A stretch of 64,000 nucleotides of DNA, taken from positions 1 through 64,000 of the forward strand of contig NZ_JAHLYS010000040.1 in the NCBI RefSeq assembly GCF_025128055.1, given 5' to 3'. Made by a program: the position numbers and the translations under genes. This document shows, one piece after another, positions 33,001 to 37,531 of the stretch (its first letter is position 1; each line of letters begins with the position of its first letter). A model generated the notes under the pieces. The model searched no databases. It had not been told where the DNA came from and saw nothing but the letters and a program-made list of their open reading frames with translations. Source of the stretch: Synechococcus sp. CS-1329 (GTDB lineage Bacteria > Cyanobacteriota > Cyanobacteriia > PCC-6307 > Cyanobiaceae).

Positions 33001-33873
33001 TCAGAGAAACTCCGGCCGCAGGGCCCGGCAGCCCTCCAGTTCCCGGGCCAACCCTTCCCAGTCCTGGCGCTCGAGCAGATCTTCAAGGCTGTCGAGGGCC
33101 TGACGGTAGTGGCCCAGCGCCTCGGCCACGGCGACACTGTTGCTTCGTGCCATCAGAGTGCCAAGCTCCGGATTGCCACCGCCCACCCGGGTGGTGTCGG
33201 CGAAGCCGCTGGAGGCCAGGGCGCGCACCAGCGCCGGCAGCGCCGAGCGGGGCGCAGCGGCTGCTGCGCCCCGCTCGGCCGCCCGCAGCAGGGCGGCGCT
33301 CACCAACACCGGCAGGTGGGAGATCAGGGCCACGGCCCGGTCGTGATCGGGTGCGGCGCACTCCAGCCAGCGGGCCCCGAGGGCGCCCGCCAGGGCGCGC
33401 ACCTGCTCCAGGGCTGCTGGGTCGGTGTGGTCGCTGGGGGTGGCCACCCAGGGGCGGTCGCGGAACAGGTTCGGCAGGCCCGCCTCCACCCCGGCCCCAC
33501 TGGTGCCCGCCATGGGGTGACTGGCCACGAAGCGGGGAACCAGCGGCTCCCAGACCGACAGCACCGGCGCTTTCACCGAGGCCAGATCGGCGATCACCGC
33601 CTCCCTGGGCAGGGCCGCCAGCAGCTCCGGTGAGGGCTCCAGCAGCCGATCAAGGGGCAGGGCCAGCAGCACCAGCCCACAGCCTGTGAGCACCGAAGGA
33701 TCGATGCTCACCTGAGAGGCCAGGCCCCGCTGCCGGGCCCGCTCCGCCGTGGCCTCGCGGTGCACCAGAGCGCGTACATCAACGCCAAGGGCCATCAGGT
33801 CAAGGCCGATCGAGCCGCCGATCAGACCGAGACCCACCACCCCCACCGGTCGCTCACGCCAGAGGGTTGTCAT
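33001..33873 (-). CDS. tyrA: Prephenate/arogenate dehydrogenase
   Basis: 290 residues. The dinucleotide motif VGLGLIGGSIGLDL is at the N-terminus; ADLASVKAPV and VASHPMAGTSGAGVEAGLPN match the TyrA active-site region, and the helical C-terminal domain contains HDRAVALISHLPVLVSAALL. It makes tyrosine precursor by oxidative decarboxylation; in cyanobacteria the enzyme usually uses arogenate and NADP. No ACT domain is present, consistent with little feedback control. It converges on crtD with an 8-base gap. Confidence 0.92.
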   Translation of the reverse strand: MTTLWRERPVGVVGLGLIGGSIGLDLMALGVDVRALVHREATAERARQRGLASQVSIDPSVLTGCGLVLLALPLDRLLEPSPELLAALPREAVIADLASVKAPVLSVWEPLVPRFVASHPMAGTSGAGVEAGLPNLFRDRPWVATPSDHTDPAALEQVRALAGALGARWLECAAPDHDRAVALISHLPVLVSAALLRAAERGAAAAAPRSALPALVRALASSGFADTTRVGGGNPELGTLMARSNSVAVAEALGHYRQALDSLEDLLERQDWEGLARELEGCRALRPEFL

Positions 33874-33915: not shown

Positions 33916-35349
33916 ATGTTGGAAGCCCGCGCCCACCAGCAGCTCAAGCAACTCCTGCGCCAGGAGGGCGGCATCCGCTGGCCGCACCACCTGACCATGA
34001 GTCGGTTGGTGGCGCGCAGCCTGCGACGCGCTGACCACACCCTGGTGCGCCTGGCGCCGGGCAGCGATCCCGATTGGCTGGTGGGCCTGCTGGTCCCCCT
34101 GGCCCTGGGGGATGCCCCGATCGCCCTGGTGGTGAGCGATCCCCTGCGTCGGCGCCTGCAGCAGGTGGAGATGCCGCGGCTGAAGGCGGTGGGCCTGCAT
34201 CTGCCCTGCTGGGAAGGATCCGCCGGCGCCCCAGATGAGGCCCCCCTCTGGCTGCTGAACCACGCAGAACTGGAGCTGGCCTGGCGCCAGGGGCAACTGG
34301 GGCAGCGGCAACTGGTGATCCCCGAGGCCGAGCGGCTGCACCAGCAGCTGCGCCAGGCCCTCGACCGTCCGATCGAGAACAGCGACTGGGAACGGCTGCG
34401 CCGGGTGTTGCCCAGCGCCGAACCCAGCCTGCTGAGCCTGCATGAGCGCATGAGTCGGCGGATCTTCGCCCATCCCCGCACCCCATCGGGCCTGGTGCCG
34501 ATCAGTCCCGAGGAGGAAGCGCCGCTGAGGCACCTGCTGGCCTTGCTCGGCCCCCTGCCGGAGGCCTGGCAGCTCTGGCGCTCAGCCGTTGGGCCTGGCT
34601 GGACCAGCTGGGCCAGCGTCGACAGGGAGCTGCTGCAGTGGCGCCTGCATCGCCAGCCCCTGGAGCCCCTGGAGGCCATGGAGGGCCTTCTGCACCACCG
34701 TGGCGCCGTGCTGGTGGGTCAATTCGGTCGCAGCGCCGCCCCAGCGGGGATCAGTCCCCAGGTGAGCGTGAATCTCTCGGATCCGCCCCTCTCCGATCCG
34801 CTGCCCCTCTATGCACCCCTGGGCCAACCATTCCCCAACAGCCCCCACTTCGGCACCCACCTGCTGGATCACTGCCGGCGGCTGGTGCTGGGCCAGAGCG
34901 GCCTGACGATCGTGCTGGTGGATGAGCAATCCCAGCGCCTCAGCCTCGCCAGCGCCCTGGCGGCGGAATTCGGTCGCCGGGTGGGCCACGAAAGCACCGC
35001 ACCGGAGAGCAATGGGGTGATCTGCTGCGGCTGGCAGTGGTGGCTGGAGCATCAGGGGCGGCTGCCCCTGCCGCGCCAGGTGATCGTCGGTCCGCTGCCG
35101 ATCACCAGCCTCGAAGATCCGCTCACCGCAGCCCGGGTCAACCGGCTGCGCCAGGCCGGCCGTGACTGGTTCCGGGAGCTGCTGTTGCCGGAGGCCATGA
35201 CCCGGCTGCAGCTGGCTCTGGCGGGACTGCGCCGGGGCGGAGGTCGGCTGGCGGTGCTGGACGGACGCCTGCGCAGCCGCAGCTGGGGGCACCAGGTGCT
35301 CAGCGCCCTGGAGCCCTGGGTGGCCCTGACCAGGTTGCTGCCGCCCTGA
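33916..35349 (+). CDS. DinG-like helicase homologue lacking ATPase motifs
   Basis: 477 residues from ATG 33916. The layout follows DinG/XPD-type superfamily 2 helicases: an early segment VRLAPGSDPDWLVGLLVPLAL sits where Walker A is expected, then LVVSDPLRRRLQ, and LVIPEAERL (133-140) where DEAH is expected. The C-terminal part has RQAGRDWFRELLLPEAMTRLQLALAGL and VLDGRL, like the LPxAxxRLxQGxGRLIR / VLDxR end of DinG. The GxGKT and DEAH residues are missing, so helicase activity is unlikely. Role unknown. It is divergent from tyrA. Confidence 0.7.
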   Translation: MLEARAHQQLKQLLRQEGGIRWPHHLTMSRLVARSLRRADHTLVRLAPGSDPDWLVGLLVPLALGDAPIALVVSDPLRRRLQQVEMPRLKAVGLHLPCWEGSAGAPDEAPLWLLNHAELELAWRQGQLGQRQLVIPEAERLHQQLRQALDRPIENSDWERLRRVLPSAEPSLLSLHERMSRRIFAHPRTPSGLVPISPEEEAPLRHLLALLGPLPEAWQLWRSAVGPGWTSWASVDRELLQWRLHRQPLEPLEAMEGLLHHRGAVLVGQFGRSAAPAGISPQVSVNLSDPPLSDPLPLYAPLGQPFPNSPHFGTHLLDHCRRLVLGQSGLTIVLVDEQSQRLSLASALAAEFGRRVGHESTAPESNGVICCGWQWWLEHQGRLPLPRQVIVGPLPITSLEDPLTAARVNRLRQAGRDWFRELLLPEAMTRLQLALAGLRRGGGRLAVLDGRLRSRSWGHQVLSALEPWVALTRLLPP

Positions 35350-35418: not shown

Positions 35419-35670
35419 ATGGGAGAGGCCAAACGCCGCTCGGAGCAGGGATTGCCGCCACGCGGGCCACAGAAACAGCCCGGCTCAGCCAAGGGCAAGG
35501 ACACCTCGCCACGGCTGGTTGCCTGGCTGCCGCTGACCCGCCGCCAGGCCGATCGCTTCGTTCAGGTCTCCACCCAGGGGGCCTGGGTGGGCATTGCGGC
35601 TCTGGTGCTGTTCTGGATCACGGTGCGCTTCATCGGACCGGCCGCCGGCTGGTGGGTCCTCTCCGATTGA
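35419..35670 (+). CDS. DUF2839 family small membrane protein
   Basis: 83 residues, starting MGEAKRRSEQGLPPRGP, a cyanobacterial DUF2839-type N-terminus. A basic half is followed by LPLTRRQADRFVQVSTQGAW and one hydrophobic helix (WVGIAALVLFWITVRFIG). It is probably anchored in a membrane with the basic part in the cytoplasm. Function is unknown. It stands 69 bases after the DinG-like gene. Confidence 0.75.
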   Translation: MGEAKRRSEQGLPPRGPQKQPGSAKGKDTSPRLVAWLPLTRRQADRFVQVSTQGAWVGIAALVLFWITVRFIGPAAGWWVLSD

Positions 35671-35759: not shown

Positions 35760-36140
35760 ATGTTTCCCCGCCTCGCTGAGCAGTACCGCTCCGTGGTGCT
35801 CGACCTGGTGATGAGTCTGCAGGCCCTGGCCAGCAGCCTGCAGCGCAAAGGCCTCGTGGCCACCTGCTATGTCTGCGGCGATGGCCGTGATGGCCACGGG
35901 GCCTCTTTTGTCGCCGACCTCGGTGATGCCCACATGGTGCGCTTTCTCGTCTCCGACTTCGGCATCAGCTGGGTGGAATCACGCCACGGCTGCGAACTGG
36001 TGAAGCTCGAAGGGGCCGAAGCGATCCAGGAATTGCAGCGGGTCGCCACGGTCCTTCAGCAGGCCCCACCACCCAGGCCCACTGCCCTGGAATCCGCTCA
36101 AGAGCCCGAGCCCAGCAGGCTCGAGGCTCCCCAGATCTGA
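35760..36140 (+). CDS. DUF1815 family protein
   Basis: 126 residues from ATG 35760 (MFPRLAEQYRSVVLDLVMSL). The core, RKGLVATCYVCGDGRDGHGA, LGDAHMVRFLVSDFGISW and HGCELVKLEGAEAIQELQ, resembles the cyanobacteria-specific DUF1815 family, for which no function is known. Upstream codons in frame overlap the DUF2839 gene and are rejected. The tail after residue 95 is Pro/Glu-rich. It converges with recA with a 7-base gap. Confidence 0.75.
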   Translation: MFPRLAEQYRSVVLDLVMSLQALASSLQRKGLVATCYVCGDGRDGHGASFVADLGDAHMVRFLVSDFGISWVESRHGCELVKLEGAEAIQELQRVATVLQQAPPPRPTALESAQEPEPSRLEAPQI

Positions 36141-36147
36141 GCTGATC

Positions 36148-37359
36148 TCAGCTGGAGGCAGACTCCAGCGAGGCCACACCCGCTTCCACGCCGTTCTCCG
36201 ACGCTGATTCGCTAGACTTCGACGCAGCGGCGGCCGAGCCGGTGGCGGCCAGCCTGGCGGCCGCCGCTGCCAGTGGCTTGAGCGAATTGGCAGTCACATC
36301 AGCCCCTTCGGTGAGCCTGCGCCGAACCTCGGCCTCGATCAGCTCTTTTTGTTCCTGGTTCTGCTCCAGCCAGGTGATCGTGTTGTCGCGGCCCTGGCCG
36401 ATGTTGTCGCCGCCGTAGCTGTACCAGGCACCCTTGCGGATCACCACACCGGTTTCCTCGGCCAGATCGATCACACAGCCGAGGGTGCTGATGCCACGGC
36501 CGAAGAGAATGTCGAATTCAGCGATGCGGAATGGGGGCGCCACCTTGTTCTTCGCCACCTTCACCTTGGCGCGGATGCCGTATTCCTCCGTGCCGCGCTT
36601 GAGAGTCTGAATGCGGCGAATGTCGAGCCGCACCGAGGCATAGAACTTGAGGGCGTTGCCGCCGGTGGTGGTTTCAGGGTTGCCGTAGGTGACGCCAATC
36701 TTCTGGCGCAGCTGGTTGAGGAAGATCACCGTGCAGCCCGACTTGCCGATGTTGCCGGTGATCTTGCGCATCGCCTGGCTCATCAGCCGCGCCTGGCTGC
36801 CCACCGCCAGGTCCCCCATCTCCCCCTCAATCTCGGCGCGGGGCGTCAGGGCCGCCACGGAGTCGACCACAACGATGTCGACGGCGGCGGAGCGCACCAG
36901 CTGATCAACGATCTCCAGGGCCATTTCGCCGGTGTCGGGCTGGGAGACCAGCAGGTTCTCCACATCGACCCCCAGGGCCGCGGCATAGACCGGATCGAGC
37001 GCATGCTCAGCATCCACGAAGGCGGCCACCCCGCCGCGGCGCTGGGCTTCAGCGATGGCATGGAGGGTGAGGGTGGTCTTGCCGGAGCTCTCCGGTCCGT
37101 AAACCTCCACCACCCGACCCTTGGGATAGCCGCCGCCGAGGGCCAGATCGAGCGTGAGGGCACCGGTGGACATGGTCTCCACCCGCATCCGGGAGGCATC
37201 CCCCAGGCGCATGATCGAGCCCTTGCCGAAGTTGCGCTCGATCTGGCCAAGCACCAGGTTGAGGGCCTTGTCACGCTCGGCCGCCCCGGCCGCCGTCGCC
37301 GCGCTCGAGGAGCGGGGCTGGGCAGCCCTGAGGTCGGTGCTCTTGTGATCGGCAGGCAT
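36148..37359 (-). CDS. recA: Recombinase RecA
   Basis: 403 residues from ATG 37359 ([14 protein letters not shown]). Core RecA motifs are complete: [20 protein letters not shown], Walker [11 protein letters not shown], Walker [13 protein letters not shown], loop L2 region [20 protein letters not shown] and [14 protein letters not shown] 20-residue Ala/Ser-rich N-terminal extension and a long Ala/Ser-rich acidic tail make it longer than E. coli RecA. A near-consensus cyanobacterial LexA box lies 159 bases upstream. An upstream frame extending past 37359 is not conserved. Confidence 0.97.
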
Positions 37360-37517: not shown

Positions 37518-37531
37518 AGTACAGGCGTACG
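37518..37531. promoter_or_regulatory. Putative LexA (SOS) box upstream of recA
   Basis: AGTACAGGCGTACG fits the cyanobacterial LexA consensus RGTAC-N3-D-GTWC-B with one mismatch (C at the D position). It lies in the recA 5' region, next to a possible minus-strand -10 (ACTAAT). Repression of recA by LexA is not universal in cyanobacteria, so the site is tentative. Confidence 0.5.

Follow-up and report, generated by a model that had tools for sequence, protein, structure and literature searches.

The window (the whole stretch of 64,000 nucleotides analysed here) contains, at positions 33916..35349 of the forward strand, an uninterrupted ORF that starts with the ATG at 33916, ends with the TGA at 35347-35349 and encodes 477 amino acids. 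On the basis of the ORF, matches to the YoaA and DinG models and the predicted fold, the product was classified as an ATPase-less DinG/XPD-fold protein of the type named sDinG (short-type DinG; Nostoc sp. PCC 7120 type) in section 3.9 of a 2025 review (PMC11981726). Close relatives in named records, including that of Synechococcus sp. WH 5701, share 89-95% identity with the window protein, which marks the window as picocyanobacterial. The sDinG gene lies head-to-head with tyrA (prephenate dehydrogenase; 33001..33873, reverse strand) and is adjoined downstream, on the same strand, by a gene for a DUF2839 protein (35419..35670; PF10999, E = 1.8e-28). This is followed by a gene for a DUF1815 protein (35760..36140, forward strand; PF08844, E = 2.4e-45; start set at the first ATG inside a longer ORF), which is considered below as a candidate partner of sDinG. 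The recA gene (36148..37356, reverse strand) is convergent with this run of three genes.

In total, eight proteins encoded in the window and in neighbouring loci were annotated, which represent a minority of the neighbours in the 38 loci compared: the DUF2839 and DUF1815 proteins, the products of tyrA, recA and psb28, an FAD oxidoreductase, a pentapeptide-repeat protein and one protein with no match. The psb28-type gene adjoins sDinG on the opposite strand in four loci of families f27 and f31 (L161-L164; Pfam assignment made on L161 only), and in four others (L036, L037, L038 and L165; Pfam assignment made on L036 only) the gene for the pentapeptide-repeat protein immediately precedes sDinG and is read in the same direction. 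A search of the window with a LexA-box consensus returned 10 matches, a count reached in 3 of 100 shuffles, and none of them lies within 2 kb of the sDinG gene. The nearest, the palindrome AGTACAGGCGTACG at 37518-37531 (one mismatch to the consensus), is located ~160 bases upstream of recA, and control of sDinG by the SOS response through a LexA box is thus unsupported.

Profile searches and structure prediction both place the protein in the DinG lineage, as had been proposed from its layout and C-terminal motif. Residues 387-467 matched Helicase_C_2 with 16.4 bits, which is under the cut-off of 25.3, and residues 388-468 matched the NCBIfam YoaA model (E = 2.7e-10); the cut-offs of the NCBIfam DinG/YoaA models (NF053712 and NF008729) were missed, with 39.6 bits versus 680 for YoaA and 28.6 versus 598 for the other model. 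Because the YoaA and DinG models were matched by 49 of 49 orthologues (best E = 4.5e-32) and the fold is that of DinG, this C-terminal similarity is above chance. A sequence search of the PDB with the window protein alone gave no match, and the family alignment of 49 rows (A1) found E. coli DinG (E = 1.2e-8). The AlphaFold model of the window protein, built from the family alignment without templates, has a pLDDT of 91.9 and a pTM of 0.89, and its top Foldseek matches were DinG structures (E = 8.9e-17). With VIA-align, the best solved match was S. aureus DinG (Z = 25.5, rmsd 3.5, 459 residues aligned), and two RecA-like domains in the DinG arrangement were recognized by both programs. The window protein is, as modelled, of the DinG/XPD fold, and the possibility of a structure unrelated to DinG, which the original prediction had left to such a comparison, was not realized. 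A model of an early-branching sDinG (L051) predicted from one sequence had a pLDDT of 40.3 and was set aside.

The structures of E. coli DinG (PDB 6FWR/6FWS) and S. aureus DinG (9II8/8ZEF) were the best structural matches, and the P-motif prolines and F638 are aligned between these proteins and sDinG. Compared with E. coli DinG, the window protein is 239 residues shorter and lacks both the ATPase motifs and the Fe-S domain. Another short XPD-fold chain, the archaeal Xpd4 of S. tokodaii (PDB 2VL7), was another of the nearest structures (Z = 21.8 over 400 residues).

The motifs were compared in an alignment of 63 sDinG orthologues, drawn from the window's family and class, and 15 active-type proteins, namely 11 from the phylum's other classes, two cyanobacterial DinG proteins, E. 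coli YoaA and E. coli DinG; a 151-amino-acid fragment at a contig end (L057) was excluded from the 63, and L053, which is also cut at a contig end, was retained. All features of the gene given here and below are on the forward strand. APGSDPDW (residues 47-54; 34054..34077) occupies the place of Walker A, with Trp54 in the column that contains the Walker A lysine (K60) in E. coli DinG, and in LVIPEAERL (residues 133-141) the PEAE part (residues 136-139; 34321..34332) is aligned with DEAH, both replacements being as originally described. The Walker A lysine column contains Trp in 29, Tyr in 26, His in 4, Phe in 2, Cys in 1 and a gap in 1 of the 63 orthologues, and Lys in none; because the P-loop region of the alignment is gappy, this exact column is less certain than the absence of the motif itself. 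A P-loop (GxGK[ST]) was found anywhere in 0 of the 63 orthologues versus 15 of the 15 active controls, in 0 of 39 sDinG versus 21 of 21 active proteins in a second, overlapping set, and in 0 of 80 named loci (partly from the same genomes as the 63). The alternative P-loop elsewhere in the protein that the original prediction had allowed for is thus rejected in all three sequence sets. DExH was likewise found anywhere in none of the 63 orthologues and in all 15 controls.

The loss extends further. It was correctly noted before that Walker A and DEAH are gone, and this understated the extent of the change, for motif III (SAT) and motif VI have likewise disappeared, together with the Fe-S insertion. 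Among the 63 orthologues, the DEAH columns retain Asp in 20, Glu in 31 and His in 1; the three SAT columns retain their residues in 8, 5 and 3, the last being Thr; and the motif Va columns retain Glu in 1 and Gly in 0. Motif VI (QGxGRLIR) is degenerate, reading LALAGLR in the window protein (residues 433-439; 35212..35232), with Gln652 kept in 6, Gly655 in 1, and Arg656 and Arg659 in none of the 63 sequences. A gap stands at each of three Fe-S cysteine columns in 61-63 of the 63, and the DNA contacts on the Fe-S side (R117 and R211) are also lost. The active proteins keep their residues at the Walker A Lys, DEAH His, motif III Thr, Arg656 and Fe-S columns in 13-15 of 15 cases. A plain helicase annotation would therefore be misleading for orthologues without ATPase motifs, in line with the earlier warning.

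Other residues have been strictly kept. Pro395, Pro402, Trp418, Phe419, Leu424, Pro425, Asp449 and Arg451 are invariant in 63 of 63 sDinG sequences. The two prolines belong to LPITSLEDP (residues 394-402; 35095..35121), which is the equivalent of the P motif, and Asp417-Trp418-Phe419 and Asp449-Gly450-Arg451 are encoded at 35164..35172 and 35260..35268, respectively; the Asp and Arg of the latter are common to active DinG and YoaA. The P motif of E. coli DinG spans residues 614-619, stacking on deoxyribose is provided by F615 and F638, and Y636 stacks between bases, as described in part of eLife 42400. Phe419 of sDinG aligns with F638, and Trp418 aligns with P637, beside Y636; Trp is also found at the latter column in 13 of the 15 active proteins. 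The F615 column contains Phe in 9 of the 63 sDinG sequences and Ile or Leu in the remainder. Landmarks of MD2 located at or beside the ssDNA contacts of DinG are thus, as far as the alignment indicates, invariant in sDinG, although the same residues could be structural instead of DNA-contacting.

Several near-invariant residues are new to sDinG. The N-terminal signature WPHHLTMSRLVARSLR (residues 22-37; 33979..34026) is a conserved sDinG-specific block that replaces RxxQ of the Q motif, and the Q-motif Arg column contains Arg in 0 and Trp in 62 of the 63 orthologues. W22 (62/63), H24 (60/63), R34 (60/63), R355 (62/63) and R439 (63/63), together with the further near-invariant residues W158, G353 and R455, are each found in no more than 2 of the 15 active proteins. 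Residues 301-477 carry a weakly positive net charge, the median being +3 for the sDinG and the active set alike, which counts against the DNA scaffold considered below.

The absence of premature stops and the maintenance of the protein, both part of the original prediction, were borne out by the intact ORF and by substitution rates. Among nine genomes of the genus, the dN/dS (NG86) of 36 pairs, which are pairwise values and hence not independent, had a median of 0.108 (range 0.050-0.157). By segment, the values were 0.158 (residues 1-155), 0.045 (155-215), 0.126 (215-300) and 0.069 (300-476). sDinG is, judged by these rates, under purifying selection, and a pseudogene or a decaying gene is rejected by this dN/dS and by the finding of no internal stop among the matches listed.

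The kind of protein encoded in the window is already in print, and the window protein is, by its sequence features, a picocyanobacterial member of it. The sDinG of the review and the window protein are alike in being cyanobacterial, in consisting of MD1, MD2 and Arch with no Fe-S domain, and in missing the ATP-binding residues. For the window protein, the absence of an Fe-S or pseudo-Fe-S domain was established by the alignment, the whole-chain fold match and the length of 477 amino acids, and the ATP-binding residues are absent as described above. The review states that the Fe-S domain and ATP residues are missing and that no function has been studied (PMC11981726, section 3.9). It also describes an extra helix alpha3a in the ATP site; this helix is not evident in the secondary structure of the window model, where one helix (54-64) follows the strand 41-46. 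The section reports sDinG in Nostocales, Chroococcidiopsidales and Pleurocapsales, three orders in its text, whereas here a picocyanobacterial member was found and the type proved to be near-universal in the class as sampled. The sDinG proteins of the class form one clade (100/100), among whose rows the Nostoc PCC 7120 sequence was not pinpointed. A whole-word literature search for sDinG gave no other relevant paper among the matches listed; in the parts covered by term searches, a paper on the essential genes of S. elongatus does not mention DinG and a cyanobacterial core-genome paper contains neither helicase nor DinG as whole words, and passages of a study of damaged DNA in marine Synechococcus have nothing on the sDinG gene. 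Relative to the relevant sections and searched terms of PMC11981726, what is added here would be that sDinG is near-universal, arose on the stem with relic stages still visible, occurs in a picocyanobacterial form and is linked to DUF1815.

sDinG was found in 55 of 60 relatives of the window genome and in 354 of 388 genomes of the class, the latter drawn at a completeness of at least 90%. The loss of the motifs is not peculiar to picocyanobacteria but common to nearly the whole class as sampled. Synechococcus elongatus PCC 11801 (G046) carries sDinG, and the gene is retained in the 1.6-1.7 Mb genomes of genus g18. Of the 34 sDinG-negative genomes, at least 21 (G385 and G399 among them) belong to family f23, to which Pseudanabaena galeata CCNP1313 and Synechococcus sp. 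PCC 7502 were assigned through plasmids matched at 100% identity, and one (G512) is a small-genome member of the window's own family. A repeat search of 20 of the 34 with E values up to 10, run with no positive control within the same search, detected sDinG in 0 of 20. A mobile or phage gene is rejected because tblastn at 1e-5 found no match among 72,556 plasmid and 50,697 phage records. Its retention in about nine-tenths of the sampled class members, including the small g18 genomes, suggests that sDinG is likely to matter to these organisms.

Across the phylum, 101 of 194 genomes were matched, 13 of them outside the class. The 11 of these 13 matches that were read (L148-L158) are all YoaA/DinG-type proteins with an intact P-loop and DEAH, encoded by open frames of 639-1021 amino acids (upstream extension included), from classes that we take to be non-photosynthetic; the class carrying sDinG presumably corresponds to the photosynthetic cyanobacteria. 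These proteins and sDinG belong to the same family by profile and have the GRDWFR...LPEA and D-R...YG blocks in common, but AG[TA]G[SC]GKS, DEAH, SAT, FWEG[VI] and Q..GR.IR, all present in the former, are absent from sDinG. Within the class, Helicase_C_2 scores above 95 bits were obtained in 9 of 388 genomes (G288, G245, G271, G048, G263, G253, G302 (partial), G055 and G280), eight of which (six plus G048 and G055) encode proteins with AGTGTGKS and DEAH or DEMH; each of these eight also carries sDinG. Partial Helicase_C_2 matches occur in scattered class genomes, e.g. an 857-amino-acid protein with HTGQGKT in L186 (340-2913) and two ORFs in L061, and these look like a different helicase family.

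sDinG forms one clade (100/100) in both trees, the first of which included 56 of the 63 sDinG rows (L002-L006, L008 and L053 left out) and the second 39 of 72 rows. The lowest sDinG branches are those of the early-branching families f13, f51 and f52, followed by f4 and f50. This single clade with early-branching families at its base points to one origin on the stem of the class and mainly vertical descent, with secondary loss in f23; most simply, the ATPase and Fe-S machinery would have been lost once, on that stem. The best tree joins sDinG to cyanobacterial DinG with weak support (77/16), and an alternative tree with sDinG beside the helicases from other classes was not rejected (p-AU = 0.389). 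Because sDinG sits on a very long stem (1.92 and 2.12 changes per site in the two trees) and many rows depart in composition, this placement is unsure; a duplication likely preceded the loss of the motifs. Relics of the motifs are visible in ten rows (nine early-branching ones and L204), namely the DEAH Asp in 10, the Q-motif Gln in 9, the DEAH His in 7, the motif Va Glu in 8 and Phe at F615 in 8. sDinG may be regarded as a natural experiment in the conversion of a motor into a non-motor protein, with relics in early-branching lineages, several of which also have a paralogue with intact motifs.

The DUF1815 protein encoded downstream of sDinG is present in 310 of the 388 class genomes. No genome with DUF1815 lacks sDinG (0/310), all 34 sDinG-negative genomes lack DUF1815, and 44 of the 354 sDinG-positive genomes are without DUF1815 (38 of the 87 from the window's family, plus 6 from elsewhere). 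Among the 144 genomes listed with positions for both genes, the two are within 8 kb of one another in 70 (16 of 31 families), with a median distance between listed positions of 1.6 kb; by chance, roughly 0.3% per genome would be expected. In the early-branching genomes with listed positions (f4, f13, f50 and f52), they are non-adjacent in 7 of 7. The co-absence is essentially one evolutionary event, involving one clade and the single small-genome member of the window's family. DUF2839, used as a negative control, was present in 40 of 40 genomes, 20 of which lack sDinG; it is therefore rejected as a co-lost partner, and since it is also a neighbour, neighbourhood alone does not yield co-absence. 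We infer from these genome comparisons that DUF1815 is a candidate partner of sDinG. A PDB search for relatives of DUF1815 gave no clear match (single hit, E = 0.79), and a literature search found its name in two papers. The idea that sDinG evolves faster after the loss of DUF1815, prompted by the long branch of genus g18 (2.33), was dropped, the end branches of members from genomes lacking DUF1815 (G011, G018, L028 and L029) being ordinary (0.39 and 0.37).

The interpretation that we favour, to which we assign about an even chance, is that sDinG is an SF2 helicase of the DinG/YoaA lineage turned pseudo-helicase, acting as an ATP-independent scaffold that holds ssDNA on MD2, with DUF1815 as an accessory in most lineages. 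The ancestral helicase would have lost its ATPase and Fe-S machinery on the stem of the class and been kept as a pseudo-helicase, which would hold single-stranded DNA on MD2 without ATP; the steps concerning DNA and partners are the conjectural part. The N-terminal signature (WPHHL..RLVAR.LR) and the new near-invariant arginines may recruit or steer replication or repair proteins, and DUF1815 would be a small accessory that needs sDinG, in most lineages. The affinity for DNA may be low, because R117 and R211 are lost and F615 is Phe in so few sequences; no biochemical evidence of DNA binding by sDinG was found, and modelling with DNA achieved only partial DNA on MD2 (PMC11981726, section 3.9). 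The active relative YoaA functions bound to chi, a clamp-loader subunit (PMC8378479 and PMC9826845, in part), which makes a replication-repair setting plausible for sDinG.

The same YoaA-chi complex (PMC8378479 and PMC9826845, in part) and the strong conservation of sDinG-specific residues would also suit a pseudo-helicase that is mainly a structural and recognition subunit of a helicase-nuclease or clamp-loader-type machine, bound to a motor encoded elsewhere. We consider this alternative rather unlikely, for no motor or nuclease was found among the eight annotated proteins of the window and neighbouring loci, which are a minority of the neighbours in the 38 loci. AddB is an SF1 protein and part of a helicase-nuclease. 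The AddAB enzyme offers a precedent in that a helicase-like domain recognizes Chi (PMC4824097, in part); this fold likewise serves recognition, and its likeness to sDinG is an analogy only.

It is also improbable, in our estimate, that the fold has left DNA behind and been co-opted for another task, e.g. regulation or assembly in connection with oxygenic photosynthesis, with the MD2 residues being structural. The motif-less form was seen only in this class, the 11 proteins read from other classes being intact, psb28 neighbours sDinG in four loci, and the window gene has no LexA-box-like match within 2 kb, all of which would fit such a role. However, the surviving invariants include the counterparts of the DinG P motif and F638, and sDinG is absent from the Pseudanabaena family. 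Members of this family are photosynthetic, so photosynthesis does not need sDinG. A residual or unconventional ATPase that binds nucleotide via a different site is very improbable: the relics in early-branching members (DEAH Asp 10/10, Q-motif Gln 9/10 and motif Va Glu 8/10) could be read in its favour, but there is no P-loop in the 63, 39 (overlapping) and 80 (partly overlapping) sequences, Trp, Tyr, Phe or His stands on the lysine column in 61 of 63, and Arg656 and Arg659 of motif VI are gone in 63 of 63.

The scaffold interpretation can be extended, tentatively and with more doubt than confidence, to a cyanobacteria-specific two-protein module in which sDinG would be a static single-strand clamp or platform and DUF1815 its dependent accessory. 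A duplicated repair helicase would have given rise to such a module when the photosynthetic cyanobacteria emerged, and in nearly all of their descendants the dead copy would have survived longer than the working copy. Provided that the link to DUF1815 is real, sDinG and DUF1815 would constitute a testable pathway in a tractable host, S. elongatus.

Some individual members of the type are unusual. A contig of a metagenome-assembled genome titled Bifidobacterium breve (L128; CALPNT020000014.1) carries a cyanobacterial sDinG with 65% identity, and is most likely a mislabelled or contaminated bin. The sDinG of L165 (G179) is encoded by an open frame of 590 amino acids and contains an insert with three DEGD repeats. 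The sDinG proteins of genus g18 (L046 and L167) are on a very long branch of 2.33 changes per site and have kept the MD2 invariants.
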